From: Acholoe squamosa
Taxonomy: Eukaryota; Annelida; Polychaeta; Phyllodocida; Polynoidae
NCBI GenBank assembly: GCA_949317995.1
Contig: OX439038.1
Location: forward strand, 59,540,813 to 59,604,812
Length of the DNA: 64,000 nucleotides
Direction of reading: 5' to 3'
Every line of letters begins with the position of its first letter. Within the stretch, counting starts at the first letter, position 1. A model generated the notes under the pieces. It saw only the letters and a program-made list of their open reading frames with translations, did not search any database and was not told where the DNA came from. The position numbers and the translations under genes are program-made. Shown here one piece after another: positions 28,901 through 59,694 of the stretch.

Positions 28901-31900
28901 ACCTAGTATCTCCTCATGAGTTATATCGTAGATTTTATTTGCATGCTCATCAACTGCTGCCTTTTAGTGTAAAGACCAGGTGTGGAAGACATTTCTTACC
29001 TTCTGTTAGCAAGTTTAATTGTTCCTGTAGTGTTCTAGAGGCATTGTAAGTACGGAATACCTTGGCGGTCAATCCGTCCATCAAACTCTGCAGATGTTTG
29101 TTCATAATTGATGTCTGGGGAAGAAGAAAAAAGAAAGTTTATCATATGAAACTATGACAAGTGTCTGAAGTATTAAGATTCAAATTACTAAAATATTTAG
29201 ACTGCAAATAGAACATCAAATACACAGGTCTAAAATATCATACACAGTACTTTCACTGATGAAAATCAATATGGTAATGGCTCATTTACAAAAGACTTAA
29301 AAACTGTTCTTACATTGAGGCGATCAAAGAGGTCATCACCCCCGGCCTTGTTGTCTGTGAAGAGCTGGAGGTTTTTGAAGACGCGCTTCTCGACAGCCAC
29401 CTTGTTGTAGTAACGGATGGAATCTTTACCAAGGAAGTCAAACTCGACAACATACTCTTTCCCATCCATCTCCTCATGCAGTTTGATGTGCTCAACTCGG
29501 AGCGAACAGCAACCGACTGTGTCAGCAGTCTCTTCATCCTTCTCGTTACCAGCTCTCAATGCCAACTACAACCAAAGACATGAATCTCAAACACATGATA
29601 AATGGAAATAGTCGGCCCTTGCATCCTCAGATTTGGAAGATGCAAGGAAAAATGTCTGAGGATACAAGTTATTTGAGGACTTAAGTCCAAACATGATATA
29701 AAACAGAGCTAGTTGTAGATCTTCCGTCTTAGGTAATGAAGGTTCTGAGGAAACAAAGGGTCGAGGAAGCAAGGGCCGACTGTATGCAATTGGTGTACCA
29801 TCCGTGGTATTAATGTATCCATTGCTTTGCAACTACTCTACCTTACACTAGTTTTGCTAAATATTTCATTAGTATAGATTAGTGGTAACAGTTTGGAGAT
29901 TACTTCACCTAGAGCTGCTATATCACCAACACTCACAATTGCAGTCTCATGAAAGATTACAGGCATAAATACCTTATCAATAAAGTACAGGGCAACGGCA
30001 CGCTGGCGGATGCGCATCTCCTTGGACTTCCAGTCCTCGCGGTAGGTGGCACGGATTTTGTCAACAGTTTTGTGAAGTTTCCGTGCTGTCTCATATTTCA
30101 TCCAATCCTTTTCACCCTTAAGGCGGGAGGCTGGGTTCAACATGATATACTTAGTCCCACCCTGGACGTTCTCCTGCCAACTGGCCAGCCACGTCACAGT
30201 GTTGTCATGCCGCACCTCCTTCCACCTCTGTCCCTCAGGTGGTTGGGGTATTTCAGAGTCCCTGTGAGTTAGAGGTTTAGGTAAGTCAAGCTTAGTGGAG
30301 CATCAATATGATCTCCTGCATATAAGGCACGGCTTATACGTATATAAGAGGACCCCTGTGGCTCATAGAATGTCCCAAATCAGGCTACAGCTCATACGCT
30401 AGTATTTAACCTTACAAAGAGAGTACTAAGCCCATTCATTTTCAAGGTGCGATTTACCACCTTCTTCAAAAGTATGGGTGTGGCTTTTATGGCAGTTTCA
30501 CCACAGGGCATTCAAACACGCTATTTTATCGTATCATTTAAGTATTCAACAGGCATTCTAACAAGTGGTGTAGAGTTTAGATGTACATACTTGCTACAGT
30601 TTATAATTATATCCTTTGCCAGCACACGACGCTTTAGATGGCCCATCTTGGGATGTGAACCGCGACCACGGAATAGACCAGGAGGCTCAATCCTGAAGTT
30701 ACCGATCTTCTCTTTATGGTTGTCCATGGTACAGAAACCATATTCTTCCACCAGACGGGCATTCTCTTCCTTTATTTTCTGTAATCAAGTTGTCATAGTA
30801 TCAGTAAAGACCGTGGCAGGTGAAGAGCAGCGCAAAACCTGTTAACTCGAATTTACTTTAAGCATTTCTGTTCTTAATAGCATATATAAAAGACCAAATT
30901 CATGTATTTGAGCCTTTTGAGGGGGGAAATTGTGGACTCACATTTTTCTCCTCTTTCGACATGGCTTTCCGTTCTTCAGACTTCCTCTTGAAGTGTGCAT
31001 CAATTTCCTTGAAGTTGCACTTTTTCAGGTCCTTTATCTTTTCCTTCTCTTCATGCGTCATCACTGATCGCCAGTCCTAAAACAATGGTAGATAAATGTT
31101 ACATGTAACTATATAACTAATGTGCAGCGAATGACGTACAGTGACCTAGGCATCAGACCTCAAACTACAAAATTGCTTTGTATTTTATTTGTCCATCTAC
31201 ATTGAGTCAAAGTACTGATTTTATTTCCTTTAATACTCTATTTTTTTAATGTCCGAATGAAATGTTTAGTCCTTGGATAAAATCCACCTATAATTCTCCT
31301 TACCTTGAAGAAGTTCTTATTGAAGACCTCCATGGTGGTGTAGTCGTGATCAATCATACGTCCATAGAAGGTGGCTACCTCTTCTGTTTCAGGCGAGAGC
31401 TTCATGTGTTTGCCATCATAGTAGAACTTGACATTATCTGGGAGCGGCTCATAATCTGGGGCAAATACTGGGCCGTTATGTTCAAGGAACTTCCACTTTG
31501 TACCGTCATCTTTGCGCTCCTCTTCCCACCTAGTAGAACATAAGAGGTTTATTCTCAATTTAGTGCTGTTGAATGTTTAAGAAAGTACAAGTTGTGCATA
31601 ACACATGGTCAGAGGTGTCAGTTGGGTGTTGGTCCAACCTCTGAAAATTTTATTACCCTTAAACATTTCACAAGTGGAAGGATTTCTCAACATATAAAAC
31701 TGCACTAAAGTCTAAATTTAAGGGGAACTCTGAAAGTAAATGAAACTCTGAGGGTCTGATATCTCTGCATGGTGGCCATAATATATTTAAAATATAGGGC
31801 AGCAATGTGCATTGCTTGTAACTCGAAAAGAAATAAATCAACAGCCTTGAGCAAGTCTAGCTTGTGGTCTGACATCAGCACTCCCTCACCCAGGTTATAA

Positions 31901-34900
31901 ATTGGCAGCACCAAGCCACTATTTGCATAACTCCCGCCAAAACTGCCCTATTTGCACCACACTGCCAAAAAAGGCAGGAAAGTTGATACATGGATCAACA
32001 TCATATACCTTAACCATCGCAGGCAAAATCCGTCTTATGGCTGCCAACCAACTGACTCTGTAGAATAGACAATTACTCAAAATTTACAAAAGTTGGTACT
32101 GAAATACCCTTTCCTGCAAGACCCCTACATCTCCTCCTTTAATGGCACTACAAATTCATTAAGTAATTCTGCCTCTTATATATAAATTTCCATCTTTTTT
32201 TTAAACTTATTTGCACCACCAAAATGACTAAAAATGAGGTGACCCATAGGCGTCTCCTATAACTCTTTTCAAGTTAATAAAAATTCCAAAGATTTCAGGA
32301 AATCCCTTAGTAATATCATGTCTTCTTTGCATGAAAATGGATCGATAAATGTACTACCGGTATATGTTTACTTACCATCTCCATTTCTCTTCAGGCTCTT
32401 CTTTCTTCTTGCCCTTCTTTGTGGGCGAGGCTACCGGTGTGGGTTTGGCCTTCTTTTTCTGTGGGGATAACATTTCAATAATTTATTATAAATGTGCTAT
32501 TGCTATAAGTGTACATGGATCACTGCAGCGCAGTGTTACCTTTATATCTATCTTATTTTTCTTTGTATTAATTCATTTGAATTAAATATTTTTTCTTTGA
32601 TTTTTTTCCCTTACCCCCCCCCCCACCCCAATAATCTGTGATGGTCACTATTTGTTTATATTGAACAACCTATTTTGGTAATCACAATATAAATGTCAGA
32701 AGGAAAAGTTTTGAATATTTTGTTGCCTTACCTTTGGGACATCATCGTCACTGTCATCGCCTTTCCGTTTCTTTGGCTTTGATTTCGGTTTGGCCTCCAC
32801 TTTGACTTTCTTTTCTTTCTGGGCACGTGCTGCTAGAGGTACATCATCGTCTTCGTCATCAGATAGTTCCCGCTTAACGGGTGGTGCCTCAACCTTGGGA
32901 GCACGGGCAATCTGTATACCAAAAGATGTGTAGCTGTGATAAGAATAACCCTAAAACTAATGATATCCTCATTTCTGTGTTATCACCAGAACAATTTTGT
33001 GTATTACATGAACTATATCAATATCAATAGAAAATGCACATATATCATGGAGGAGTCAAATCTGAACGCCCTTAAAAGCTCTAGCATTACTTACCAGTGG
33101 CATATCATCCTCACTGTCGTCCATGGGCTCTGGCTTGGGTTGTTTGACTGGGGTCACGGGTTCTGGTTTCACCACTACCTTCTGTTCCACTGGCTCGACC
33201 TTCACCTTTTCTGTTTTGACCTTATCGTGTTTGTGATCTGCAATTTAAACGGTGTATTTTAATACCGGTACATGTATATGTAAGTAGATATGGCCCAACT
33301 AAAAAAATAAGTTGGTCTACGGATTTTAGTTTTGAAAAAATGGTGCGAGCGAGCAAATTTCTTTCTTTTTTTTTTAAAGAATTCTTTGGCATCCAATGGA
33401 TTCCTTGCTGGGAAATTGAGGCGAGCGGACAATTTTTTTTTTTTCAAATTTTGCCAAACATCACATAGAGAAAACTTGTAGAAACTGAAGCAAGCGAATT
33501 CCAAAGACACGATTTTTTTTTTCAAAGAAAAAATTGTTTTTTTTTTCTCCCCGAAAATGTGGAGAGGGCGATCCGTAGACCAACTTATTTTTTTGGTGTG
33601 GCCTAATTAGAGTCATTTAATAGTTGGGTATTTCAAATTGTATCAGTGGTATAAGCGATGCTACTATAGCATCGCTGAGAATAAGTTCTAAGCATGTTCT
33701 GAAACTTAATTACAGAAGGTACTTTCTGTTGGCTTTCTTGGAAATTTAAAATCAGTTTATACCTTGAATAGTTCTAAACATACCTGAACTGCTATGCTTG
33801 CCATCTTTGTCGTGTTTGTGCTCCCTGTGCTTGGAGCTGGAATGTTCTTTGCCATCTCTGTGCTTTGACGACGAGGACGAATGATGATGCTTCTTGTCAG
33901 AGGATGAACTGCTGTGGTGCTTTTTATCCCCGGACGAGCTGCTGTGATGTTTCTTATCACCTGAGCTGGACGAGCTGTGGTGCTTCTTGTCGCCTGACGA
34001 GGAGGAGCTATGATGCTTCTTGTCACTTGATGACGAGGAGCTGTGCTTCTTCTCACCAGACGAGCTAGAACTGTGCTTCTTGTGGTCGCTGCTACTACTA
34101 TGCTTGCTCGATGAAGAGTGATGCTTCTTGTCGCTTGAAGAGCTGTGGTGCTTTGAAGAGCTCGAGTGGTGCTTGCTCGATGAGCTGTGATGCTTGCTTG
34201 ATGAGTGTTTGCTCGAGCTATGGTGGTTATTGGAAAGGCCATTGCTTGTCCCATTCTCTGCATGTTTTTTCACGACATCTGTTAATACATAAGTTAGAGC
34301 ATTACAAAGTAATCCCATTTTACTGCTTCTCTAACAAGACGAACAGGACAGCAATTTTAAGTGAGAGCAGTTCAAATGGTAACCAGTTACCAGTATGGGG
34401 GGCCGTGGAACAAGAGAGCAAAGAAAGTGGGGAAGAAACCAAGATTGCATCAATCCAACCTTTTAGTATATATACAGCCTTACTGATATCTTAACATCAA
34501 TCTACACCTGTAGCATGATACAGGTATATATACTCGTACTGACATCTGAGATTGGTGAGACCCTCCCACCACTCTATTTTGATAGCCCCTGTGGTCATGT
34601 ACTAAGCCACTGACCCTACTCCTGCCCAACCAGAACTACTGAGGCATGACTGAGTAGTCCCCCACCCACCCAGGACTGCTAAGCAGTAGCTGAGTGTCCC
34701 CCCACCTCCTACACCCAGTGGTGTGCCTGCCTACCTGCCTGCCTACCTACAACCACCCACCCACCCTCGCCCTGCCTACTGTACTCTGGTGATTGTCTGA
34801 TGGTGTCACCACCTACCCAGCCTCCCCCCTGCCTTCACACCCAACTGGTTTTAATTTGTGTGGTGACAAGTAGCTAATTATAGCTGTGTCTAGACCAATC

Positions 34901-42559: not shown

Positions 42560-42613
42560 GGGCCCCTTTCCATGCAATAAAGACCAGGTTTCGCGAATTT
42601 GATGCATTTGGGA
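42560..42613. repeat. Left terminal inverted repeat of the large element
   Basis: GGGCCCCTTTCC at 42560, then 14 bp, then the 26-bp block 42586-42611 identical to the reverse complement of 59621-59646. The spacer between end and block is 20-odd bp shorter than on the right. Confidence 0.6.
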
Positions 42614-42766
42614 GGGGGGGGGGGTCCCCAAGAAATATCAGAGTCGGATGATTTCCTTCTTCATGGGTATAATACAGGTCTGGGTCCATGCCACAGCACA
42701 GGTGATTTTTCTTAAATATGTGCACTGTTGCCATGGTGACCATGGGAACTTAGTATGTACAAAATC

Positions 42767-42798
42767 GTGTCAACAATTGCCCGGGCAATTGTTGACAC
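42767..42798. repeat. 32-bp perfect palindrome, leftmost motif copy
   Basis: Two GCAATTGTTGACAC half-sites meet head to head at CCCGGG, about 0.2 kb inside the left end. A single half-site follows at 43152-43164, preceded by ACATAGCCGA. The same context (ACATAGCCGG) is found near the right end at 59238. Confidence 0.85.
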
Positions 42799-43680
42799 AC
42801 CAAAATGTGTATTTTTTCATAGTTACATTTACTTTTTTCTATCACTTTCAACGTAAATGTAAGGGGACATGAACATACTTTCAACATATCAGGTACTTTT
42901 AGGCATCTTCCAAGCCATATTTATATGGGAGAAAAAAGAAAAAAGTCAGTTTCCTCTAATTTACGATTTTTACAGAACATCAATTTGGACAAACTTTGAA
43001 GAATCCGTACAAGGCTAGTCTCATACTTAGGATTGTGCCTCATATATATATTAATTCCTTCTTCCCTCATTTTCCAAAGGACATCTTGCTTTTTAACCTT
43101 TTTGGTATTTGTCTTTCTCTATAGCCTTTACCAAAGGGGGTACATAGCCGAGCAATTGTTGACATATATCTCACAATGAACATACATAAATTAAAGTTAA
43201 TAATCCAACATAAGATTAATAATAAGTTTTAATAACTCTTTTATTTTTTTTAACATATGTAGTATAATTACTCATAATGTACCTACCATTCACATTAATC
43301 CCCTTTATCGCCCAAGGGGGTACAAAATGTAGGCTATTTGATAAAAAAGTCACAAAAATTGCATGAAAACATCTCTAATTTTTGTAATTTATCTATTTAA
43401 CTTGCCGTATTTCTTCAATTTCAATAAATAAAATAAGTTCTCTAAAATAATTAATTACCCTGGCTGCTTGCTCCCCCCCAAAACAAATTAGGGGGTCTTA
43501 AAGTCTCACTTTTTCGGTCAAAATTCTGAAATTTCACCTCGCTGTGGCTACAGGTTTTTCTCTTTATGCATCTTACATGCCAAATGTACTTAAAAAGATG
43601 GTCCAATCACTTGTTTCCATGACAACAATGATTAAATATTAATAAATGCATTATTGGTTATCTGGTCCGGTCATATGTCC

Positions 43681-46600
43681 AAAATCCCCATGTTCCCCAG
43701 CCGAGCAATTGTTGACAGGTCGCAAGGCAAAATACAGCAAGGCATCTCATCCACCTGGACAGGTAAAAACTCTCATTCTCCCACCTCCTTTATCATTTTT
43801 TATCTTCTCCATGTAGTACTCTTCTGCAAACATCCCATTTTACGCACCAGGGGGCCTCTGAAAAATTCGTTTTGGGCCTAAAAATGTCAAGTTTAGTCCA
43901 AAAAACCCTAAAATTCACTTTTCTAGGCGTACAACTTTTTAAAAATGCACCTTTAACATGTTGCATGTCTTTGAAATTATGCCCCCTTCTCTTGTTGCTA
44001 TGCCAACAGTCAGTGTTTCTTGATAGATTACAATATATATACATGGCACATCCAAAATATGGATGTTCCCCAGCCGAGCAATTGTTGACAGGTCGCAAGG
44101 CAAAATACAGCAAGGCATCTCATCCACCTGGACAGGTAAAAACTCTCATTCTCCCACCTCCTTTATCATTTTTTATCTTCTCCATGTAGTACTCTTCTGC
44201 AAACATCCCATTTTACGCACCAGGGGGCCTCTGAAAAATTCGTTTTGGGCCTAAAAATGTCAAGTTTAGTCCAAAAAACCCTAAAATTCACTTTTCTAGG
44301 CGTACAACTTTTTAAAAATGCACCTTTAACATGTTGCATGTCTTTGAAATTATGCCCCCTTCTCTTGTTGCTATGCCAACAGTCAGTGTTTCTTGATAGA
44401 TTACAATATATATACATGGCACATCCAAAATATGGATGTTCCCCAGCCGAGCAATTGTTGACAGGTCGCAAGGCAAAATACAGCAAGGCATCTCATCCAC
44501 CTGGACAGGTTAAAACTCTCATTCTCCCACCTCCTTTATCATTTTTTAGCTTCTCCATGTAGTACTCTTCTGCAAACATCCCATTTTACGCACCAGGGGG
44601 CCTCTGAAAAATTCGTTTTTTGCCTAAAAATGTCAAGTTTAGTCCAAAAAACACTAAAATTCACATTTCTAGGCGTACAACTTTTTAAAAATGCACCTTT
44701 AACATGTTGCATGTCTTTGAAATTATGCCCCCTTCTCTTGTTGCTATGCCAACAGTCAGTGTTTCTTGATAGATTACAATATATATACATGGCACATCCA
44801 AAATATGGATGTTCCCCAGCCGAGCAATTGTTGACAGGTCGCAAGGCAAAATACAGCAAGGCATCTCATCCACCTGGACAGGTTAAAACTCTCATTCTCC
44901 CACCTCCTTTATCATTTTTTAGCTTCTCCATGTAGTACTCTTCTGCAAACATCCCATTTTACGCACCAGGGGGCCTCTGAAAAATTCGTTTTTTGCCTAA
45001 AAATGTCAAGTTTAGTCCAAAAAACACTAAAATTCACATTTCTAGGCGTACAACTTTTTAAAAATGCACCTTTAACATGTTGCATGTCTTTGAAATTATG
45101 CCCCCTTCTCTTGTTGCTATGCCAACAGTCAGTGTTTCTTGATAGATTACAATATATATACATGGCACATCCAAAATATGGATGTTCCCCAGCCGAGCAA
45201 TTGTTGACAGGTCGCAAGGCAAAATACAGCAAGGCATCACATCCGCCTGGACAGGTTAAAACTCTCATTCTCCCACCTCCTTTATCATTTTTTATCTTCT
45301 CCATGTAGTACTCTTCTGCAAACATCCCATTTTACGCACCAGGGGGCCTCTGAAAAATTCGTTTTTTGCCTAAAAATGTCAAGTTTAGTCCAAAAAACAC
45401 TAAAATTCACATTTCTAGGCGTACAACTTTTTAAAAATGCACCTTTAACATGTTGCATGTCTTTGAAATTATGCCCCCTTCTCTTGTTGCTATGCCAACA
45501 GTCAGTGTTTCTTGATAGATTACAATATATATACATGGCACATCCAAAATATGGATGTTCCCCAGCCGAGCAATTGTTGACAGGTCGCAAGGCAAAATAC
45601 AGCAAGGCATCACATCCGCCTGGACAGGTTAAAACTCTCATTCTCCCACCTCCTTTATCATTTTTTATCTTCTCCATGTAGTACTCTTCTGCAAACATCC
45701 CATTTTACGCACCAGGGGGCCTCTGAAAAATTCGTTTTTTGCCTAAAAATGTCAAGTTTAGTCCAAAAAACACTAAAATTCACATTTCTAGGCGTACAAC
45801 TTTTTAAAAATGCACCTTTAACATGTTGCATGTCTTTGAAATTATGCCCCCTTCTCTTGTTGCTATGCCAACAGTCAGTGTTTCTTGATAGATTACAATA
45901 TATATACATGGCACATCCAAAATATGGATGTTCCCCAGCCGAGCAATTGTTGACAGGTCGCAAGGCAAAATACAGCAAGGCATCACATCCGCCTGGACAG
46001 GTTAAAACTCTCATTCTCCCACCTCCTTTATCATTTTTTATCTTCTCCATGTAGTACTCTTCTGCAAACATCCCATTTTACGCACCAGGGGGCCTCTGAA
46101 AAATTCGTTTTTTGCCTAAAAATGTCAAGTTTAGTCCAAAAAACACTAAAATTCACATTTCTAGGCGTACAACTTTTTAAAAATGCACCTTTAACATGTT
46201 GCATGTCTTTGAAATTATGCCCCCTTCTCTTGTTGCTATGCCAACAGTCAGTGTTTCTTGATAGATTACAATATATATACATGGCACATCCAAAATATGG
46301 ATGTTCCCCAGCCGAGCAATTGTTGACAGGTCGCAAGGCAAAATACAGCAAGGCATCTCATCCACCTGGACAGGTTAAAACTCTCATTCTCCCACCTCCT
46401 TTATCATTTTTTAGCTTCTCCATGTAGTACTCTTCTGCAAAAATCCCATTTTACGCACCAGGGGGCCTCTGAAAAATTCGTTTTGGGCCTAAAAATGTCA
46501 AGTTTAGTCCAAAAAACCCTAAAATTCACTTTTCTAGGCGTACAACTTTTTAAAAATGCACCTTTAACATGTTGCATGTCTTTGAAATTATGCCCCCTTC

Positions 46601-47506
46601 TCTTGTTGCTATGCCAACAGTCAGTGTTTCTTGATAGATTACAATATATATACATGGCACATCCAAAATATGGATGTTCCCCAGCCGAGCAATTGTTGAC
46701 AGGTCGCAAGGCAAAATACAGCAAGGCATCTCATCCACCTGGACAGGTTAAAACTCTCATTCTCCCACCTCCTTTATCATTTTTTAGCTTCTCCATGTAG
46801 TACTCTTCTGCAAACATCCCATTTTACGCACCAGGGGGCCTCTGAAAAATTCGTTTTGGGCCTAAAAATGTCAAGTTTAGTCCAAAAAACCCTAAAATTC
46901 ACTTTTCTAGGCGTACAACTTTTTAAAAATGCACCTTTAACATGTTGCATGTCTTTGAAATTATGCCCCATTCTCTTGTTGCTATGCCAACAGTCAGTGT
47001 TTCTTGATAGATTACAATATATATACATGGCACATCCAAAATATGGATGTTCCCCAGCCGAGCAATTGTTGACAGGTCGCAAGGCAAAATACAGCAAGGC
47101 ATCACATCCGCCTGGACAGGTAAAAACTCTCATTCTCCCACCTCCTTTATCATTTTTTAGCTTCTCCATGTAGTACTCTTATGCAAACATCCCATTTTAC
47201 GCACCAGGGGGCCTCTGAAAAATTCGTTTTGGGCCTAAAAATGTCAAGTTTAGTCCAAAAAACCCTAAAATTCACTTTTCTAGGCGTACAACTTTTTAAA
47301 AATGCACCTTTAACATGTTGCATGTCTTTGAAATTATGCCCCCTTCTCTTGTTGCTATGCCAACAGTCAGTGTTTCTTGATAGATTACAATATATATACA
47401 TGGCACATCCAAAATATGGATGTTCCCCAGCCGAGCAATTGTTGACAGGTCGCAAGGCAAAATACAGCAAGGCATCTCATCCACCTGGACAGGTAAAAAC
47501 TCTCAT
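43681..47506. repeat. 373-bp tandem satellite, about ten units
   Basis: The phrase CCCCAGCCGAGCAATTGTTG recurs every 373 bp: half-sites start at 43705, 44078, 44451, 44824, 45197, 45570, 45943, 46316, 46689, 47062 and 47435. Units are almost identical, with two subtypes: TTTTGGGCCT with CCCTAAAATTCAC, and TTTTTTGCCT with CACTAAAATTCAC, ordered A A B B B B B A A A. Open frames of about 100 residues recur on both strands only because the unit lacks stops; they are not genes. The array ends about 100 bp beyond the 3' end of the transposase-like gene. Confidence 0.95.
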
Positions 47507-47604
47507 TTAAATTACAATATCTTAAAATGATCAAAATATATACAAAGCATGGCCAACTTTTGTGATATGACAGTTGTAACGTAAGTGTAAGAAAGAGGAG
47601 ACCT

Positions 47605-50212
47605 CTAAATAAGACGGATTCTCCGTAGAGTCTGGAGAGGCAGAGTGTCGAAAATCGCCCAATCATCACTAGATGTCTCTCCATCTTCCCGGAGTTCCAC
47701 CATCTCGTTAACTACCTGTCCCCGACGTCTTTCCTCAGTAGCATGGCGGTTCTTTTCAGCGGTTTCTTTCGATGGAGGGAGGTAGTCTGGATCATCATCC
47801 GGATCCTCGTAGTCTGCGTCATCACCGTCTTCGTCGTCGATCACTACAGCCTTTTCCCTGCTCTTCCTCTTCCTCTTCACTTTGGGCCTGGCATGGACGA
47901 TGGGATCCTGAGGTACATAGTCTGATTCATCATCATCGGAGGTAAAGACCTCTTCTAAGAGTCCAGTTGTATTACCTCCCGCCAGGTCAACAAAGTCAGA
48001 GTCAGATTCAGAGTCAGAGTCTACCTCAGAGTCAGAGTCTTGTGGAGGCAGGGGAGCAACAACAGGATGCTGCCTGGACTTAGACTTACTCTTTTTGGAA
48101 GCATGTTTTGGTACCTTTGCTGTCTTCTTCGTGAGGGAGGCTTTCCTCCACGGTTTGCACATCGGTCGTAAGTCATCTGTCCAGCAGCATTCATGCTTGT
48201 AGCATGAAGTCTCCCTCAGGTACAAGTAGCCATCATGCATTGTGGCAGTGTGCACTTTAGAAATGCCATTGACGGAGGATGACGCCCAGGATTTTACCAG
48301 CGTCTTACTACGGAGGACCTCACTCTCAGTAGCCAGGAGCAACTTGATCTTGGTTGTCTCTGGTGCGACACACTCGACAAAGTCCTCTGCCGTTTGGATT
48401 TCACCGACGGACTTGACGACGCGGTCCGCCAGACCTTTAAGAGCACCGCCCACCCCATCACAGGGACCCTTGCCATGACCAGCTTCAAGCCAGTTCCATG
48501 TTATCCGAATGGAAAACATGGACTGAGCCTTGGTTATAAGATCACAGGCGAAGCGATTTCTGTATTGGGACGAGGGAGAGTCAGTGATGATGTGCAGATG
48601 CTTCATATCAGACGCCATTTCCTTTTTCACCTCTACCAGAAGCAGGGTGAGAAAAGTAAGGGTAGTAGGGAAGGAGTGTGACCTGACCTTACTCACACCC
48701 ACGAAGGAGAGTTGCTTAACTGCTTCACCGCAGCGGATGTACACAACCATCGGGTGCAAGGTGAGCTGGGCCTTTCCAAAAAACACTTTTTGGATCTCAC
48801 GCATGTAGCTGGTGTTCCAGTTTTCACTGTAATCCATTTGGCAAACTACATGGGAGTCAGGAAAAGTGGCCTTCAGCTCCTTGACCGCAGCATACTGCTG
48901 CTCGACCCGATCACAGTGTGCACGGAAGGACACTAAATCTTCCATGAACTTTGCAATAAAGCTCTCCGCGGGAACTCTAACCTTCTTTAGACTTGTGTGG
49001 AAGCAAGTCTTGATGACGTCATTTTTGTTGTACATTTTGGGCTCTTTCACCCACTCCTTATACTGCACTGCTGAGGTCTGGATCTTTGCAGCCAACTGCT
49101 CCTTTATCTGAAGGTCCGTCAACTGGATTAACTCTGACGTCCGCTTCACGAAGCCAGGGACCACCTCCTGCTTTAAGGACATGTTGGAGTGTAGCATACA
49201 TAAGCAAACACTCCTTTTAAGGAAAATGCATGCCTTAATGCTGGCAGTGTCTCTGGCTTTGTGGAAGACAGGAAACGAGAGGGTGAGTCCCGTTTCTACC
49301 ACAAACTTCTTCCACAGGTTTCGGAGTGTGTCTACAAGGGCGACTACTGGAACATTCCTATGTCGACGGTAGTGTTTCTTGTCTGGGAGAATGTAACAAT
49401 TGTCCTCCCGTCGCAAGAACTCATTGACGGCAAGGATCTTGGCTTTCGCCTTAGAGATCCGTGCCTCGCCCTTGGTTGGACTATTGCAGGGAAAAACATT
49501 ATTGCGACACAGGGCAATAGCATCTGCAATGGCTCTCTTTTGCTTGTGACGGTAGTGAATTCTGCTGTGACGGAAGATGCCTTTCTTGGTCTTATTGTCA
49601 AAAGAGGCTATCTGTTGCACCACTTCCACATACGGGGCAATAAGGTCCACCGCATCTCCTGATGGTTTCTTTAGGCCGGATCTCACCAACAGGCTTCTGG
49701 CCTTGGACAACGCATCAACGGCAGGTAATTCACAAGTGACCTGAGGCGGATGGACAACAGCTTTCCTTTTAACTTGGGCAATCTGCGGCTGGGGCGCTAC
49801 AGGTTTAGCTGTATATGGTGGTTGAGGAATTTGCGGCACCACAGCGTTCTCATTAATTTGAGCTATCTGGGGTATAAGAACGATAACCGCCTCCCCATCT
49901 GGTACATGAGCAAACCGTGGCTCAGCAGATTTCTGAGTACCAGCCGTACAAGTTCTTCGTTTTGGTTTTGGTCCAGTCTGTTCAGGGGCCACCACCTGGT
50001 CATAGACTGTTGCAGGCTGAGAGTGGAAGGCCTGCTGACTCTCATCTGTGTCTTTCTCTGGCCTCTGCTCAGGGCTTCCAACCTGGTCACTGAGGAATGC
50101 CATATGTCTGTCTATGTCCTCGTCTTGTAAGTCCTGGAAAGTGTGATCAGGGCTGAGAACCTGGTCATACACAGAATCCTTTAACAGCTCGACGACGCCT
50201 GAAGGTAATTCT
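47605..50212 (-). CDS. Catalytic 3' exon of the transposase-like gene
   Basis: Residue numbers here count from 50172 as residue 1. Residues 1-160 are Pro/Gln-rich. A basic segment (about 197-275) and CLCMLH (323-328, possibly metal-binding) follow. The RNase H-fold candidate starts at CQMDYSENW (Asp447), continues through the strand HPMVVYI and the region of FVGVSKVRSHS to TDSPSSQYRN (Asp531), and reaches WLEAGHGKGPCDGVGG (Glu563, Asp572). The spacing of the first two Asp residues and an acidic residue 30-40 later fit a DDE/DDD site. The tail 710-800 is very acidic (DSDSESDSD, DDEDGDD). An upstream acceptor at 50344 is also in phase but includes an in-frame TGA at 50284-50286; the acceptor used here (GCAACAG at 50213-50219) avoids it. 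Confidence 0.8.
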
Positions 50213-53200
50213 CTGTTGCAAGGTGGTGATAGGTTATGTGAGGTGGTTGTAGGTGGAGTCGCCAGCTTCTCTGGTGGAGAATGTCATGATGTTGTTGACA
50301 TGTAGGCCAGCCACTCTTCGCAGCTAAGGTCAAGATGTGTTCTCCTGAGGGTAAGAGGAAAACACACAGGTTTAAAGCAAAGAAGTCTGTAAACATTTAA
50401 TGGAGTGTATCAACAATTGCCCGGGCAATTGTTGACGTAACTTGCCCAGGCAATTGTTGACATAACACACGGGTTTAAAGCAAAGAAGTCTGTAAACATT
50501 TAATGGAGTGTATCAACAATTGCCCGGGCAATTGTTGACGTAACTTGCCCGGGCAATTGTTGACATAACTCAGATGCCTGTGTAATTGACAGTATAAGCA
50601 ATGTGTGTAGGCGAAAATATCATTGATATATTAAACCTAAGCAGAACAAGTTATATAGGCAGAATAGTAAACAAATCAGCGAAAAGAGCATACCAAATTA
50701 ATTAAATGGTATTGAGAGCATGATAAAAATGCACTGAGATATGGCTGTGTAGTTTCTAAAAGAAAACAACTCACATTGGAACGTTGTGATTCACACGGAG
50801 TTTGGGGCATTCCGTAGTCGGCGATGGATGGATCTCAGTGCAGATATTGGTAGTGGGGGCAGCCACCTTGGTGTCTCTGGACAGTCGGGGGTTTGGATAA
50901 AAAGTTAGGTTAGGCATGCATGCATGGGGAAACAGTCTTGACATATTTCAACTCTAAGTTATGAAGAAACAACTCAATACAGGTCTGAAGGACTTCACAG
51001 TTCGATTCATGTACTAGTAATGATTCAACACAAGGTGCTGACATTTAATGCTAGCTTAGCTAAAGTTTATACTACACAGTGTAGAGGAAGAGGCAAACAT
51101 TTACATGTCAGCGATGTACATGTATGCCCGTGACAAGGAAGGAAAAAATACTCACTCAGTACCGATATCCTTGTCGTTATCGGGCGTTGCACACGATAGG
51201 TCGGTAGTCGGCAATGGATCCTCGGAAAGAGGAGAGGACTCCTGATCTGCCGAAGCCATGTCGTTATCGGGCGTTGCACACGATAGGTCGGTAGTGGGCG
51301 ATGGATCCTTGGAAAGAGGAGAGGACTCCTGATCTCCCGAAGCCATGTCGTTATCGGGCGTTGCACACGATAGGTCGGTAGTGGGCGATGGATCCTCGGA
51401 AAGAGGAGAGGACTCCTGATCTGCCGAAGCCATGTCGTTATCGGGCGTTGCACACGATAGGTCTGTAGTCGGCGATGGATCCTCGGTGCTGACATTGGTA
51501 GTGGGGGCAGCCACCTTGGTGTCTCTGGACAGTCGGGGGTTTGGATTAAAAGTTAGGTTAGGCATGCATGCATGGGGAAACAGTCTTGACATATTTCAAC
51601 TCTAAGTTATGAAGAAACAACTCAATACAGGTCTGAAGGACTTCACAGTTCGATTCATGTACTAGTAATGATTCAACACAAGGTGCTGACATTTAATGCT
51701 AGCTTAGCTAAAGTTTATACTACACAGTGTAGAGGAAGAGGCAAACATTTACATGTCAGCGATGTACATGCCCGTGACAAGGAAGGAAAAAATACTCACT
51801 CAGTACCGATATCCTTGTCGTTATCGGGCGTTGCACACGATAGGTCGGTAGTCGGCAATGGATCCTCGGAAAGAGGAGAGGACTCCTGATCTGCCGAAGC
51901 CATGTCGTTATCGGGCGTTGCACACGATAGGTCGGTAGTGGGCGATGGATCCTCGGAAAGAGGAGAGGACTCCTGATCTCCCGAAGCCATGTCGTTATCG
52001 GGCGTTGCACACGATAGGTCGGTAGTGGGCGATGGATCCTCGGAAAGAGGAGAGGACTCCTGATCTGCCGAAGCCATGTCGTTATCGGGCGTTGCACACG
52101 ATAGGTCTGTAGTCGGCGATGGATCCTCGGTGCTGACATTGGTAGTGGGGGCAGCCACCTTGGTGTCTCTGGACAGTCGGGGGTTTGGATTAAAAGTTAG
52201 GTTAGGCATGCATGCATGGGGAAACAGTCTTGACATATTTCAACTCTAAGTTATGAAGAAACAACTCAATACAGGTCTGAAGGACTTCACAGTTCGATTC
52301 ATGTACTAGTAATGATTCAACACAAGGTGCTGACATTTAATGCTAGCTTAGCTAAAGTTTATACTACACAGTGTAGAGGAAGAGGCAAACATTTACATGT
52401 CAGCGATGTACATGCCCGTGACAAGGAAGGAAAAAATACTCACTCAGTACCGATATCCTTGTCGTTATCGGGCGTTGCACACGATAGGTCGGTAGTCGGC
52501 GATGGATCCTCGGAAAGAGGAGAGGAATCCTGATCTCCCGAAGCCATGTCGTTATCGGGCGTTGCACACGATAGGTCAGTAGTGGGCGATGGATCCTCGG
52601 AAAGAGGAGAGGACTCCTGATCTCCCGAAGCCATGTCGTTATCGGGCGTTGCACACGATAGGTCGGTAGTCGGCGATGGATCCTCGGTGCTGACATTGGT
52701 AGTGGGGGCAGCCACCTTGGTGTCTCTGGACAGTCGGGGGTTTGGATTAAAAGTTAGGTTAGGCATGCATGCATGGGGAAACAGTCTTGACATATTTCAA
52801 CTCTAAGTTTTGAAGAAACAACTCAATACAGGTCTGAAGGACTTCACAGTTCGATTCATGTACTAGTAATGATTCAACACAAGGTGCTGACATTTAATGC
52901 TAGCTTAGCTAAAGTTTATACTACACAGTGTAGAGGAAGAGGCAAACATTTACATGTCAGCGATGTACATGCCCGTGACAAGGAAGGAAAAAATACTCAC
53001 TCAGTACCGATATCCTTGTCGTTATCGGGCGTTGCACACGATAGGTCGGTAGTCGGCGATGGATCCTCGGAAAGAGGAGAGGACTCCTGATCTGCCGAAG
53101 CCATGTCATTATCGGGCGTTGCACACGATAGGTCGGTAGTGGGCGATGGATCCTCGGAAAGAGGAGAGGACTCCTGATCTGCCGAAGCCATGTCGTTATC

Positions 53201-56200
53201 GGGCGTTGCACACGATAGGTCGGTAGTCGGCGATGGATCCTCGGTGCTGACATTGGTAGTGGGGGCAGCCACCTTGGTGTCTCTGGACAGTCGGGGGTTT
53301 GGATTAAAAGTTAGGTTAGGCATGCATGCATGGGGAAACAGTCTTGACATATTTCAACTCTAAGTTATGAAGAAACAACTCAATACAGGTCTGAAGGACT
53401 TCACAGTTCGATTCATGTACTAGTAATGATTCAACACAAGGTGCTGACATTTAATGCTAGCTTAGCTAAAGTTTATACTACACAGTGTAGAGGAAGAGGC
53501 AAACATTTACATGTCAGCGATGTACATGCCCGTGACAAGGAAGGAAAAAATACTCACTCAGTACCGATATCCTTGTCGTTATCGGGCGTTGCACACGATA
53601 GGTCGGTAGTCGGCGATGGATTCTCAGCAGACACCTTATCCGGCGACTTGTGTACAAACTCCGAAAGCCATTTTTCATATGGAATAAGGGTATCTCTTTT
53701 CCTGTAGGTCAAAGGCAAAGTATGTACAGGTATCTGTGCACAACTCATTTTGCTTTAAAAAGAGGCAAATTAGAACTCTTCATGATTTCTTAAAAGAAAT
53801 GATGATACATCTTTTCAGGCTATTGTACATAGTTTGCATAAAGTTGTGAGTTCTTATATAACAGTAAAAAATCAGTGGACAAGTATTGATGAATTTACTT
53901 ACTTCTGAGGAGTTGAAGCTGGAGACCTCAGCTTTACCTTCCACTTACAACTGCACGATGTGGGATGAAATGGATGTGAGGAAGTATTTTTTTTAAAGAT
54001 AGTTCATGTAATATACTGTCTCCTTTTGATGAGTGACTAATGGACTGATATTCTTACTGTATTAAAATATTGCCTCTGCATACCTATTGCATGCCTCATG
54101 CCTCTGAATAAAACTTTGCGATGCATAGACATCTTTACTCAAGTAGAATAACAACAGGGATGTAGAGAATTAACATTTTTAAAACTTTAATCAAAAAGTC
54201 AATGTTTATGTCTTTTACATAATAAAAGTAAGGAAATAAAACATGAGACTCTAAAAATGTCGAATAGATGTGAAGTGCAATGACAATGCAAGATAAAGTA
54301 TATATATATACTTTTAAAAATGAAGTGTCAGACAGCCCTCTGTGTCTCTCTTAAAACTTCAGGAACTCTAGATATGTGGCAGGCAGCAGTGCTACCGGTA
54401 CATAGTGCCATACAGTCAAATCATAATAAAAGCATAAGAATAATGTAATATGCACTAAAAACTTCAGGAACACTATGTGTCGGGCAGTGATACCGGTGAG
54501 CTGGTCACCTGTGTCTCTGTTGTGATTTTGCGCCTGAGCGTCGGACAATACCTCCTAAAATGCATCTTATGGCTTACAGTCAAATAATAATAAAAGTCTA
54601 AGAATAATGTAATATGCACTAAAAACCTCAGGAACACTATGTGCCACATGTGTCTCTGCGTTGTCGTTTTGCGCCTGACCGTATAAAGGTATAAAAACTG
54701 AATACTGCACTTGTAATATGTGTTGTGGACAGCACTCTAAATATAGATCTATATCATACTCCATCCTCTTGTGCATAATAACATAGTTTAGTTGCGTTTT
54801 CTGAAAGGAAAGGCGAAACGATCGTTACAACAACCGTAAAAATTCAAACCAAAACATGTCAAGAAATTTGAAGAAGAAAGGGTACTAGTTAGGGGAATTT
54901 AAGCAAAGTTCACCATGAAATATATTCAAGAACCGTTGAACATTGTTACCATTGTTAGTTTGAAATCAATTAAATAAACAATGAAATTGTAAAGTCTACT
55001 ATAGTAACTCAAACATACATATCCATCAGAATTTAGTGTGAGAACTTACCCTTTAGATTTCTTTCCTTTCCCCTTCCCCTTCCCCTTGTACGAGGGAGTG
55101 GGTGAGGAGGGCAGAGATGGAGTGGAGTCTGTGTCTACCACAGTTATGGCTGTAAGAAGATAAAATGGTATTTAAAGGTGAACGACGATAAGTTTATATG
55201 GTCAATGGAGCACTAGTATTTACCTTGACGTAATTATAAATTCTATACCAATAATTGCTTACAATTGGCTGCATGGTTACAAGTATAAGGAAAGTTATTG
55301 ACTGCTTAAGCGTATTTCTATCATATCACATCCAAACTATACAATAGAACAAATGTTCACTTACTAGAGTCTGTTGATCCCTCCGTGCTGCGTTCAGGTG
55401 AGGTGAAAACGGGTATCTCAACATATGTCATGTCTGTCTTACGACTCTCTGTAAATAGAGAGATATTTTTAGCCACTCCTAGTCATTCTTAGTTAAGGCT
55501 ATAAAACAGAGGTACAGAGGTACAGACGTGCATGTCAACATTTGCCCGAGCAATTGTTGACATGTCAACAACTGCCCGGGCAAATGTTGACATAAACAAA
55601 AGGGAAATTCCAAAATACGATTCAGAGAGAGGGGGTAATTGATACTCATTGGTGCATGACAAAGGAGATTATGTGTAATTGAAGAAAGCAAAACACATAC
55701 TCGCAGCAGCAGCAGCCGGGGACTTGTCCTTAGTAAAAGACAGCCTCTTTCGTGGACTTCTTTTTTTATTAGGGTCGGTGGCTTCTTCTTCCGTCCCTGG
55801 AGTAGAGGTCTCCTCCTCCAGCTCCTGTAACATGGCTCGACGGGCAGCCTGGTCCTCTAGGGACTGTAAGGACTGTAAGGAAACAGTGGCGGAGAAAAAA
55901 ACTTTAAAACTGCCAGTGCTATCAGCCTGGACACAAAAACTCACTTTATGGAGACTGCTTCAAAGCCATTTGAATAAGACGATATTGTGTGGCTGCACAT
56001 AAATGACTTCTCTATTTCAGTTTTGAAAGTACTTACCAACATGTTAATGATAATTACCCTATATATAAAAATGGGTTGGTATGTACAGCGCTGGTTACTT
56101 TTACAATATAAATGACTGCTTTAAATAGCCTAGTGTACTCGTGAGGTACCAGACCAGATGAAATAAAATGGTAAAGGTGAACGATGAGCAGTTTTCAAGA

Positions 56201-57855
56201 GCTGACCGTTTCTTCACGAGGGTGGCCTGCCGTGCAGGTCATCTTCATCGCGAAATCCTGACCGCCGCCATTTTGAATGTTTACGTTTCAAAAATGCTGC
56301 GCATGCGCAATAGACCTATGACGTCATCGTGCAGATTTGGCGCTGGTTATTTAACGCAGGGGTGCAATACGGGGGTTTAGTGCATTGTCAATGGAGCATC
56401 GATATTCACCTTGACATAAAATAAAATTTTATAGGCTGTTACTTAAGCAGCGAGGAAAATGCCAGCTAACTGGACTGTCAGTATAGATTGACTTTCATTA
56501 ATATGCAAGCCAAGTGCTAGTGATAATTTTAAATGCCCATTGAGCTCACCATTCCAGCAGGCTGCCATTCAGTCACTGCATCTACAGATGTACCTGCCTC
56601 TTGCAGGTCCAAAGGTGATGGCGAAGGGGGAGGGGGGATGGGAGTTTTCTGCTTTTTCTTCTTGACGCGTCGCTTTTTGGCATCTGGCAGCTGCACCTCA
56701 GAGTCAGACCCTGAGGTGGAGGCAGCTGCCCTCGTTCGCCGCCTCTGACTAGGCGGAGTCCTTTTCTTCTCTGAAAAACATAGGGGCAGATATTAATTTT
56801 ATTTTATGTGAATAACTTCTTCCTGTAGAGATAGCATTGCGGAGCCGATCGCCACACCCCAGTGTGTCGATCCACCACAGCGTACCATAGACTCGTTCTG
56901 GGTGCGTGTAAACATTCAAAATGGCGGACCACCGCTTGTACGGGGCACTACGGTAATGGATTTTGTTAATTTTCAGTTAATTAAAACATAAAATAAATAT
57001 AGAACTAAACTTCCCTGGTGTCCTCGGGGTGGATCGGCCACCTCGTACACCACGGTCGTTTAGTTCTATCTATTTATGTCAAGCTGAATATCGATGCCCC
57101 ATAGAAAAAGCACTGAGACCGTGTTTTGCATCCCTGTCTTAAATAACCAGCGCCAAATCCGCACGATGACGTCATACACCCACCGCGCATGCGCAGCCTT
57201 TTTGAAACATAAACATGACACATGGTCTCAGTGTGTTTCCTATGGAGTCTCAATATTCACCTTGACATTTATAAACATGTACATACTAACCTCGCGACTT
57301 CTTTTGGCTGTTTCGCCAAGTTTCCCTACGTTTTTCCATGGCTGGCGTCCCCTCAGCTGGCTTGTTTCGCTGAATAAAATATTAAAATTATGAACCTTTG
57401 TCTGCTTGACATACATTTATTTAAAGTTGAATAACATTCTGAGTAAAAAATTCTACTTAATTACTTTTCTCTATCAGAGGAGTAAGGACTTACAAGTTTT
57501 AGTAACCTGATTTGAACACCTCGCATTGTTCATGTATTAATTATATGCTTTGTGGAAAAATAATTCTGAAAAATCAAAAAAAACTTACTTCCTGTATGTC
57601 TGCTAGGTATTCTTTATATGCTTCAGAGTCCTCCCCCTTTTTTTTGTTTTTATCACGCTTCCTGGTGTTGTAGTTAGACCTAATGGACTGGAAGACAGCC
57701 TTTTGTTCCTCAGTCATATAACGATAAACGAGACGGTGTCTTGTTAGCCACTCTTCTAGAACATACAGAGGGGCTCCTCTGGGAGGCCTGACAAGGGGGG
57801 GGAGGCATCCCACCACCATCTCATCTTGTACAAGGGATTTCCTCTTGCGTGGCAT
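47605..57855 (-). CDS. Large multi-exon DDE-transposase-like protein
   Basis: Proposed gene: ATG at 57855, then exons 57589-57855, 57291-57369, 56550-56770, 55701-55872, 55365-55448, 55050-55149, 53903-53950, 53558-53701, 53001-53282, 52444-52725, 51800-52168, 51156-51524, 50775-50876 and 47605-50212. Every junction is GT-AG and every phase matches, giving about 1,708 residues. The N-terminus (MPRKRKSLVQ) has a helical domain with VLEEWLTRH and RSNYNTRKRDKNKKK. Disordered Ser/Pro/Lys-rich segments follow with an NLS-like KKRRVKKKKQK, then about fifteen 29-residue PSPTTDLSCATPDND-type repeats, then the catalytic exon. I recognise the core (MDYSEN ... TDSPSSQYRN ... GHGKGPCDGVGG) as a widespread uncharacterised animal family. 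A transposase role is inferred, not proven. Confidence 0.7.
50363..50571. repeat. ~104-bp tandem duplication carrying the palindrome
   Basis: The block CACACAGGTTTAAAGCAAAG ... TTGTTGACATAA occurs twice in tandem in the last intron of the transposase-like gene. Each copy holds one near-perfect palindrome (50410-50435, 50513-50538) and a further half-site with GCCC(A/G)GG (about 50443-50462, 50547-50565). Confidence 0.85.
51156..53282 (-). repeat. Four tandem exon-intron modules, nested 29-residue repeats
   Basis: Exons 53001-53282, 52444-52725, 51800-52168 and 51156-51524 are near-identical copies together with their flanking introns, with module periods of 557, 644 and 644 bp. Each exon starts and ends in phase 2 and begins DTKVAAPTTNVSTEDPSP. 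The exons contain three, three, four and four copies of an 87-bp repeat (29 residues), which accounts for the 87-bp difference in period. Exon 50775-50876 is a decayed end member and exon 53558-53701 a divergent first member. The near-identity, introns included, indicates recent unequal exchange. Confidence 0.9.
55531..55594. repeat. Two adjacent palindromic motif copies
   Basis: Two imperfect palindromes of the GCAATTGTTGACA type lie end to end in an intron of the transposase-like gene, centred on GCCCGAGC (about 55547) and GCCCGGGC (about 55578). Both have AAATGTTGAC in one arm. Confidence 0.8.
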
Positions 57856-59619
57856 TTTGAGAACTGTAATAGAATATGACATGATAGAACATCGAAGGGG
57901 TATGAGGTTTTAAGGCTATGACATAGGGGTAGACCTACATATTTTTTATAGTATATTTCAACCCCCCCCCCCAACCCTTATGGATAAACTATTTCCTATA
58001 CCTAAGGGAGGAAACAGAATTCTGAGAACTTGTAACATGTGATCTCTTGGCATGGAAATCAGTTTGACTTAATTGGGAGTACTGGTATAAAAAAGAGACA
58101 TAGAGAGGGTTTACCATGCTATGTCAACAATTGCCCGGGCAAAAACGCTGGGAAAAACTGCTGAAATTTTACATTATTTAAATAAATAAGGCAGTAAACA
58201 AACATAAAAAGATGTGACATGTTATAACCAGTCAAGAAAATAATTGTGACTCACTAGGGATGAGAATTGAGAGAGACAGAACACATTTAAATAGTGCCAG
58301 GACATGTCAACAATTGCCTGGGCAAAAGTTCGGGCAGAAAAGGGGGATTTTTTTTACTATAAGACTGAGATAAGGAACCAAATGAGAATGATAAGGTGTG
58401 GAATGATATAAAGGGTCTTAGTTCTAAGTTTGGCTCGTTTTCGAGTGCAAACTACTAAGATAGATAAGGTTTAAGGGTGTCAACAATTGCCCGGGCAATA
58501 GTTGACAACTGCTTTAAAGGAGCCAGACAGTGATGTATGAGTGCGGGTGCGGTAATTAATGTTGTTTTTGAAGAGAACACATCAAGAGCGATATAAAAAA
58601 CGATATCAGTTGGGCCTATGGACCTTTATGAGGCACTGGGGAAGGTGATCAGGCAGAAATGGGTGTAAAAATACGAGGTTCATCACTTTTTGTAAGGCCA
58701 GTCGAAGAAAAATCAAGTTAACTTACCGCAGACCGGCGTCCCTGTCAACGGGGAAAGGGGTGCAGAAGAAGGAGGTACCCGTTACGACCGCCGAAAGTGA
58801 CGCTAGATGGGAGGAGAGTCAATTAACTTACAAATTTGTTGACAGGGGGCAGGCCGGGCAATTGTTGACTTCCCGCCCAGGGCTACAGGGAACTTCTTGC
58901 CTGGCTCTGCTTGTACACATGCTACGAGCACCATCTTTGGCCTGAATGGGAGGGGCATGGGTCCACATAAGATGAACATATGGTACATAGTTAAATAATT
59001 ATAACATGGAAGCACTGATGGCATGTTTCACAGCCGAGCAATTGTTGACAGGCATCATTTTTGAGGCGGTCCAAATAAGGAGTGGGGGGCTGAGCCAAGG
59101 ATAGATGACAGATATACATAAATATATTATTACATCCAAACTATTACATATGCAGAATACTATTTTAAAGGTAATTAGAGTTAAAGCCTAGAGGGGAATA
59201 CAGGAGAAATGAGGAAATGAGAAATTAATTTTGAGGTACATAGCCGGGCAATTGTTGACATGTCAAGAAATTTTCATCTTCTTCAGTTAAATACCTCCTG
59301 TGAGATTTTGGATGGGGGGGAGCCCTAAAACCTCCTGTTTTGTTAGCCCAAGTGTATTCCTGGACTTTAAAACAAATAAACAACAGGATTTGACTGCAAT
59401 TTTTTTTATAATTGAGAATCCTGCGTGAGAGAAAACAAAAAAACGTGACTTTTTCGTCAAAAAGGGGTAAATTTCCCCCCCCCAAAAAAAATCTTTAAAG
59501 GTAAAACTATACATTTTCAGAGAGAGCATAAAAACCCCTACGCTATAACACAAAAAACACATGAAAAAAAATATAAGGGAGCCTTACAGTACCCCCCAAA
59601 GGGTCTGAAGCCTGATTTT
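57856..59619 (-). promoter_or_regulatory. 5' region of the transposase-like gene with motif cluster
   Basis: No coding exon is seen upstream of the ATG at 57855. The repeated motif occurs at 58122-58142 (half), 58305-58325 (half), 58478-58507 (palindrome, one mismatch), 58853-58869 (half), 59038-59050 and 59248-59260 (half), roughly every 170-370 bp up to the right end. The element's promoter must lie here. The spacing suggests arrayed binding sites between promoter and terminus. Confidence 0.5.
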
Positions 59620-59694
59620 TCCAAATGCATCAAATTCGCGAAACCTACTCAAAAGCAGGGTTTTTAAAAACAAAAAAAAAACAAAGGGGGGCCC
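59620..59694. repeat. Right terminal inverted repeat of the large element
   Basis: The 26-bp block at 59621-59646 is the exact reverse complement of 42586-42611. The element appears to end at AAAGGGGGGCCC (59683-59694), matching the left GGGCCCCTTT apart from two extra C/G bases. An A-rich spacer separates block and end. Confidence 0.6.

Follow-up and report, generated by a model that had tools for sequence, protein, structure and literature searches.

In a stretch of 64,000 nucleotides of Acholoe squamosa DNA (the window), one long minus-strand gene lies between two inverted repeats about 17 kb apart, together with many occurrences of a palindromic motif. This raises the question whether the interval is a mobile element and, if so, of which kind. 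A preliminary description had read it as an intron-containing DNA transposon of about 17 kb and of unrecognised superfamily, and had made this reading depend on whether other loci pair these ends with this gene. Such loci exist. The exact 26-bp end occurs 24 times in the 1.48 Gb genome and not once in the reversed control. Among these ends are nine convergent pairs, which are spaced 12.7-26.8 kb apart and located on eight contigs, and all nine pairs enclose the same gene; dispersed copies of one gene between identical ends are expected of an autonomous DNA (TIR) transposon. A 35-place end pattern with up to three mismatches was found at 255 places genome-wide and at none in the control; it contains 25 bases of the 26-mer, and its anchor base is counted among the three permitted mismatches. 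Together with perfect 4-bp target duplications at seven of the nine pairs and the empty site of a sister copy, the paired copies bear out the transposon reading, and the interval is indeed an autonomous DNA transposon, with a length of 17,069 bp.

The whole copy extends from 42582 to 59650, with limits taken from the comparison with other copies and from the exact empty site of the sister copy. Its A-end terminal inverted repeat (42582..42611, plus strand) consists of GACC and the 26 bp, and its B-end repeat (59621..59650, minus strand) of GAGT and the 26 bp; the true ends are the GACC/GAGT tips plus AGGTTTCGCGAATTTGATGCATTTGG. The perfect 26-bp inverted repeat was thus described correctly (42586-42611 and 59621-59646). 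The GGGCCC blocks (42560 and 59694), which had been proposed as the ends, are outside the element, 22 bp beyond its left limit and 44 bp beyond its right limit, as other copies open with the GACC/GAGT tips. Directly adjacent are TAAA on the left (42578..42581, plus strand) and AAAA on the right (59651..59654, plus strand), a presumed target duplication that is imperfect, with a match at three of four positions. The other window-family pair that lacks a perfect duplication is the copy on contig C12 (GTAA/CGTA). In a second, related family, all 12 pairs with both flanks in hand have perfect 4-bp duplications. Altogether, 24 perfect duplications were tabulated (seven from the window family, 12 from the second family and five from short elements), a set that excludes the window and C12 pairs.

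The joined flanks of the sister copy at 34.9 Mb on contig C6 gave at least 40 end-to-end genome matches over all 300 bases with 92-94% identity, 40 of 189 first-look candidates having been scored. The one match that was aligned (L059) is an exact empty site and crosses the junction with a single ACCT; it belongs to this sister copy and not to the window copy. Target duplications and an exact empty site for one copy, both expected of a TIR transposon, are thus present. Near-identical copies of the element are dispersed in the genome. The DNA of the last ORF is identical between the window copy and one copy on C6 (C6a), and a full-length, stop-free last ORF is found at seven of 12 window-family loci.

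The gene had been described as having 14 exons that keep phase on the minus strand, and the resulting model holds, with 5,115 nt coding for 1,704 aa. Exon 1 (57589..57855) contains the start codon and encodes an N-terminal region weakly similar to that of the second family (when just the two sequences are compared, 66 positions with 30% identity and E 8e-05). It is followed by exons 2 (57291..57369), 3 (56550..56770), 4 (55701..55863), 5 (55365..55448), 6 (55050..55149) and 7 (53558..53701), all on the minus strand like the remainder. Exons 8-11 (51156..53282; 53282-53001, 52725-52444, 52168-51800 and 51524-51156) are four similar tandem exons of 29-aa repeats. They form a phase-symmetrical unit, and the number of these units differs from copy to copy. 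Exons 12 (50775..50876) and 13 (50300..50344) precede exon 14 (47605..50212), which includes the stop codon and is the probable catalytic exon of a transposase. In this predicted model exon 13 has a weak donor (gtcaac). A short stop-containing exon at 54800-54788 could serve as the terminal exon instead. It was also considered that the locus might hold two genes, one of 308 aa with its end at 54788 and the other comprising the last exon. Because the continuous 14-exon reading is equally in phase, alternative splicing with the short terminal exon ending at 54788 may occur beside it. The coding differences to five other copies gave no sign of constraint (synonymous/non-synonymous 0/0, 5/10, 0/2, 1/2 and 3/10), in a count that comprises few differences and leaves out three of the eight other copies (C3, C6b and C18), the anchors or lengths of which differed. 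Selection is therefore shown solely by the conservation between the families.

A DDE-like core had been noticed in the last exon, and an alignment of six related proteins agrees with this. The candidate catalytic residues D484 (48832-48834), D568 (48580-48582), E600 (48484-48486) and D609 (48457-48459; all minus strand) within the last ORF, 892 aa long, are the same in all six, and seven Cys/His residues are invariant as well. Judged by motif order in this alignment, D, D and E/D follow each other in a plausible order for a DDE/D transposase, and we infer an RNase H-like catalytic fold in this exon. D484, D568 and D609 are conserved as in the DDD type; E600 is equally invariant. Searches of Pfam and NCBIfam at permissive thresholds yielded no family above its cut-off for the last-exon protein. 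In Pfam, the best match among the six proteins, to Cornifin on a proline-rich stretch, stayed below its cut-off with E 8.8e-4, and the best NCBIfam match had an E value of 0.036. A profile search of PDB gave a best E of 0.16, to an unrelated enzyme. In PHROGs, one of the six proteins matches phrog_15511, an unnamed family, with E 2e-5. Prokaryote and viral collections, when searched with the protein, by alignment and with the motif, yielded no relatives. For the last ORF, the one that covers exon 1 and nine others in the element, Pfam gave no match that passed its cut-off.

The claim of an unrecognised superfamily is neither shown nor refuted: these libraries gave no family above its cut-off, but the anatomy of the element fits the published description of Sola, with which it was compared by description only. 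Sola elements are characterized, in an excerpted account, by a DDD enzyme, 4-bp duplications, inverted repeats of 11-1124 bp and sizes of mostly 2-9 kb, some exceeding 15 kb (PMC10741241). The element shares the 4-bp target duplications, its repeats of 26-30 bp and its spacing of 12.7-26.8 kb are within the ranges given there, and its last exon has possible DDD residues (PMC10741241). In the length of its duplications, its size and its possible catalytic type, it looks most like Sola as described in the literature. It is slightly more likely than not that the element is an ordinary large member of Sola1, 2 or 3 that is already present in repeat libraries; the 4-bp duplication, the repeats at the ends, the size and the possible DDD residues speak for this (PMC10741241). 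Against it stand the descriptive nature of the comparison, and two published figures from excerpted sources. Sola2-type elements of an amoeba have duplications of the form AWWT (PMC3627910), which is found in one of the 24 duplications here (AAAT), and consensus elements of bivalve Sola1 average 5.4 kb (PMC10294476). The size range of 12.7-26.8 kb, the 14-exon gene model, the tandem exons and the dispersed motif also set the element apart from Sola.

There is a smaller but real chance that the element represents an undescribed transposase superfamily, in which a distinct DDD/E lineage has GACC tips and makes 4-bp duplications. The results from Pfam and NCBIfam at permissive thresholds and the unrelated best match in PDB point in this direction, as do six short motif strings that had no match in the literature text searched. 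Against this reading, the overall anatomy fits Sola and Pfam is incomplete for transposases, several superfamilies of which are, to our knowledge, absent from it. Duplications of 4 bp are also made by some or all members of Kolobok, piggyBac, Chapaev and Ginger, a likeness to the element. Kolobok and piggyBac target TTAA, which is found in none of the 24 duplications. A Gypsy-integrase-like core as in Ginger was not seen, the catalytic exon having no integrase or DDE match in Pfam, and the last ORF, the exon-1 ORF and the nine further ORFs contained neither the polymerase nor the capsid gene of a Polinton by comparison with Pfam. Altogether, we regard the element as representing a new, large and probably Sola-like family, which may recognise its own DNA by means of an address motif.

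This last possibility arises from the dispersed motif GTCAACAATTGCC, which is often palindromic. With up to two mismatches, 31 half-sites are located inside the element and one in the 46.9 kb of the window outside it; 20 Markov shuffles of the element contained 0-1 sites each, counted with the motif extended by one base. The modelled exons contain none of the 31 half-sites. A perfect 30-bp palindrome, TGTCAACAATTGCCCGGGCAATTGTTGACA, is located near the A end (42768..42797). An array of 373-bp tandem units (43690..47507; 10.2 copies according to TRF) includes 11 half-sites, and the marker of this array has 12 matches in the window copy and 1-15 across the nine copies. Six half-sites are in a 103-bp duplication in the intron before exon 13 (50361..50569), two adjoining palindromes in the intron that separates exon 4 from exon 5 (55533..55593), and seven half-sites between gene start and B end (58123..59259). 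The motif had been thought to be restricted to the interval. This largely holds within the window but not beyond it, as a genome-wide search found the 26-bp core of the A-end palindrome at 106 places, against 0 in the control.

The second family has GACC tips, is 57% identical over the last ORF and carries a different motif, GTGAGCAGACGCGG, at 22 sites in one of its two copies and at 18 in the other. With up to two mismatches this motif is absent from the nine window-family copies and from the rest of the window, and it has 277 exact places in the genome (0 in the control). Each family carries its own dispersed motif. Short non-autonomous relatives, the ends of which are similar, are also present in the genome; those of the family-2-like kind that were examined had been chosen for carrying the motif.

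It is rather unlikely that the dispersed motif is a functionless by-product of tandem duplication. Such an origin would suit the 11 of 31 half-sites in the single 373-bp array. It would also suit the 35 of 43 listed window-type ends that have no perfect palindrome within 1.2 kb, imperfect ones being uncounted. The other eight ends have one on the inner side and none of the 43 has one on the outer side; these ends are those among the matches listed on contigs C1-C7, excluding window-family ends and entries past the last listed palindrome. Against a by-product, 20 sites are outside the array; they are distributed over both strands and occur in two introns as well as close to the two ends. The second family, moreover, carries similar numbers of a motif that is unrelated to this one. 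In addition, the one short window-type element that was located by its ends, not by the motif, and then read (L100) keeps three exact motif cores.

As a whole, the locus is very probably a recently active autonomous DNA transposon of the cut-and-paste type. A host gene that has inverted repeats by chance, or an ancient segmental duplication, would accommodate the long intron-rich model in phase, but is extremely improbable and was rejected for the family in view of the paired copies, the seven perfect duplications with the exact empty site and the identity of the last-ORF DNA at two loci. In the transposon reading, the protein of the 14-exon gene would be the transposase. Its putative RNase H-like core, with D484, D568 and either D609 or E600, would make the cuts at the GACC/GAGT tips, and the element would be inserted with a 4-bp stagger. 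With less certainty, GTCAACAATTGCC may be a binding site for an element-encoded protein, which could bring the ends of this very long element together or relieve host silencing in cis.

VANDALs are plant Mutator-type elements. In Arabidopsis, as reported in part of a study of VANDAL and VANC, a family-specific short motif is found in non-coding parts, partly in fast-changing tandem arrays, and the encoded VANC protein shows tandem peptide repeats and exon-intron changes (PMC5735166). In motif architecture the element would work alike, with a repeated non-coding family motif, tandem arrays and a tandem-repeat protein (PMC5735166). VANC is a separate protein there, whereas the element has one long gene, and the two are not the same family. 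The most far-reaching reading is quite unlikely: a giant, intron-rich element of an unclassified DDD/E superfamily with a family address throughout its non-coding DNA, read by an element protein with a fast-changing tandem-exon region, as an animal counterpart of VANC/VANDAL self-recognition. Subterminal transposase-binding repeats are present in hAT and En/Spm (CACTA) elements, which make duplications of 8 or 2-3 bp. Many short sites near the ends are a likeness in mode of working, with binding known there and putative here. In contrast, the sites of the element are also present in inner introns and in the 3.8 kb array, and its duplications are 4 bp long.

Transposons of 12-27 kb with a 14-exon gene that still appear recently mobile are unusual. 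The enzyme has no match above cut-off in Pfam or NCBIfam, and annotation relying on these libraries would therefore miss the element or call it a host gene. The two related families with unrelated motifs provide, outside plants, a testable case of how a transposon could distinguish its own DNA from other DNA, and the near-identical copies could be tried in a mobility assay.

The tips of the ends vary. Among the 100 of the 255 pattern-matched ends that were listed, 59 have GACC and 13 GAGT. A switch between the two at each jump was considered, and frequent switching is not supported by the second family, in which GACC was found at 21 of 21 right tips (19 and two further; four of 25 right ends are outside the count) and at 14 of the 15 left tips found (four of 17 left places are without the end). 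In a tree of window-family ends, in which most forks are unresolved, six GAGT B ends that are nearly identical group in a single supported clade, and five other GAGT ends are outside it.

The preliminary description proposed a DNA transposon of unrecognised superfamily, on the grounds of a perfect 26-bp inverted repeat, a palindromic motif and a 14-exon gene that share a 17 kb interval. Copies of the transposon were sought in the 1.48 Gb genome (63 contigs), with the reversed sequence as control. The perfect 26-bp inverted repeat claimed in the preliminary description was confirmed in the window, and the exact 26-mer occurs 24 times in the genome versus 0 times in the reversed control. These 24 occurrences form nine convergent pairs that enclose elements of 12,684-26,815 bp. 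Alignment of the 24 ends from the outside in showed that the 26-mer is preceded by GACC or GAGT in 22 of them and by TACC and GTGC in the remaining two; the inner sequence next to it is of two kinds, A and B, which distinguish the two ends. The GGGCCC blocks, earlier taken for the ends of the element, are absent from the ends of the other copies. Since those ends lack GGGCCC and are tipped with GACC or GAGT, the limits of the window element were set to 42582-59650. The tip is GACC in most ends read and GAGT in many B ends of the window family, to which the element belongs; the two tips differ by a two-base change immediately inside the target duplication.

Perfect 4-bp duplications flank seven of the nine pairs (ATCA, ACCT, TCAA, CTTA, TAAA, TCCA, GATA). 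The window copy is flanked by TAAA and AAAA, with three of four bases in agreement, and the flanks of the C12 copy do not match each other. The C6a copy (34.9 Mb on contig C6) is inserted into repeated sequence: with its flanks joined at a single ACCT, 40 places matched over all 300 bases with 92-94% identity; scoring covered 40 of 189 candidates. Of these places L059 was aligned, and it is gap-free through the junction, so that the two tips and the duplication are established for this copy.

A protein search of the genome with the 892-aa last ORF gave 74 matches, from 51 of 1,532 first-look candidates scored. Within this scope the ORF was found at at least 12 window-family loci, including all nine end pairs; it is full-length and stop-free in seven, open from residue 81 in an eighth, and interrupted by stops or breaks in four. 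Among the blocks listed, those common to the window element and other copies are mostly 95-99.7% identical (84-95% for the C3 copy). The 2,679-nt last ORF is identical between the window and C6a copies; at the B end, C6a and C6b do not differ over the final 1,500 bases. The scored candidates also included a second family (family 2, about 20 loci, the majority with an uninterrupted 909-aa frame) as well as families further removed, down to approximately 40% identity. In two family-2 copies, of 12,367 and 10,844 bp, the ends read CTGTTTAGTGAGACTGGTGCAGGTC and AAGTTTACTGAAAATGGTGCAGGTC after a terminal GACC or GAGT, and the duplications are AACA and TGTA; all ten further pairs with both flanks in hand have a perfect duplication. 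All 19 right tips fetched are GACC, as are all 13 left tips found at 17 fetched places. The left end of the family-2 copy at G000:C4:65.63-65.64 Mb is tipped GAGT.

The minus-strand gene model comprises fourteen exons (5,115 nt) in a single frame. Exon 13 has a weak donor, and a short alternative exon with a stop is also present in the gene region. Exons 8-11 are similar tandem exons that form a phase-symmetrical unit, whose marker (exon 12 counted) has five occurrences in the window copy and between 2 and 23 in each of the nine copies. In the copy at C6 40.88-40.90 Mb, the coding tandem exon has strongly grown in copy number: 23 unit starts versus five in the window copy, and 56 markers of an 87-bp unit versus 15. 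Exon 1 is 30% identical over 66 positions to a first-exon-like ORF of family 2; the whole 308-aa peptide of exons 1-7 gave no match to family 2 by tblastn. The introns also hold a 153-bp inverted pair (56268-56420 and 57073-57225, 82% identity, 652 bases between), perhaps a nested short element.

In six aligned proteins the acids D484 (MDYSENW), D568 (TDSPSSQYRNR) and E600 and D609 (WNWLEAGHGKGPCDGVGG) are invariant, as are C360, C362, H365, C694, C699, C700 and C709. Judged by eye from the sequence, the strands and helices follow the order of an RNase H-like core, in which E600 or D609 would be the third acid. Searches of Pfam, NCBIfam and PDB with the catalytic exon proteins gave no convincing match, and the viral and prokaryote collections yielded no relatives; one of the six had a match in PHROGs, to a family without a name (E 2e-5).

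The dispersed motif GTCAACAATTGCC has 31 sites within the window element, none inside a modelled exon, and one elsewhere in the window; the nine window-family copies carry 9-35 each. Its perfect 26-bp palindrome is found at 106 genomic places. Five of these outside known copies were fetched: three (L054, L057, L058) have A-end-like sequence inverted on both sides, and the other two have inner sequence in common with them. Family 2 has a different motif, GTGAGCAGACGCGG, with 22 and 18 sites in the two copies at up to two mismatches, none of the 18 inside the 909-codon ORF of copy b. At this threshold it is absent from the nine window-family copies and from the window outside the element; at three mismatches there are 0-1 per copy and three in the window outside the element. 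Exact GTGAGCAGACGCGG occurs at 277 genomic places versus 0 in the control. Four elements of about 0.5 kb, picked for two GTGAGCAGACGCGG sites about 416 bp apart, have GACC in seven of eight tips (one base different in the eighth), 4-bp duplications (TACT, ATGT, TTAT, TTCA) and 6-8 exact motif cores. A window-type element of 0.55 kb that had been picked by its ends is flanked by an ACCT duplication and contains three exact cores.

There is thus a strong association between the motif and this transposon group. Being family-specific, spread out and located in non-coding DNA, it is a putative binding site, which might serve either end synapsis or anti-silencing. That it has no function is unlikely, yet its retention in short relatives is a weakened argument against this, as the short family-2-like elements examined had been picked by motif. 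A less biased check covered 43 window-type ends among those listed on contigs C1-C7, other than window-family copies: a perfect palindrome lies within 1.2 kb on the inner side of eight and on the outer side of none, which leaves 35 without one (imperfect sites not counted). Because of this check and the way of picking, we consider a functionless motif slightly less improbable than we otherwise would; for short members the motif shows association, not proof of need.

In the best-supported model, the element would move in a cut-and-paste manner by its encoded enzyme with a 4-bp stagger. The ends, the duplication and the empty site behind this model were observed, and the action of the enzyme is presumed. 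Altogether, 24 perfect duplications of this group show a mild WNNW target preference, the first base being A or T in 22, the fourth likewise in 22 and both in 20; otherwise they are mixed. A Sola2 group is reported to have AWWT targets (PMC3627910). The Sola outline in the literature (PMC10741241) fits the window family in duplication length and size and possibly in DDD residues. We regard the family as new and probably Sola-like rather than as an established member of Sola. For the architecture of the element, the closest published parallel is VANC/VANDAL (PMC5735166), as a comparison of how it may work only.

The window transposon lies on the 5′ side of a host DNA topoisomerase I gene, present in pieces on the minus strand (29269-31576; Pfam Topoisom_I, Topoisom_I_N). 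A Ser/His-rich ORF (33755-34330), judged by eye, may be its N-terminal exon. A minus-strand retroelement with reverse transcriptase (5054-9603; Pfam RVT_1) includes an ORF that resembles a tyrosine recombinase by eye, with no Pfam match for that ORF, and which we take to indicate the DIRS/Ngaro type. A leucine-rich repeat exon is located on the plus strand at 19003-19449 (Pfam LRR_9, LRR_4).
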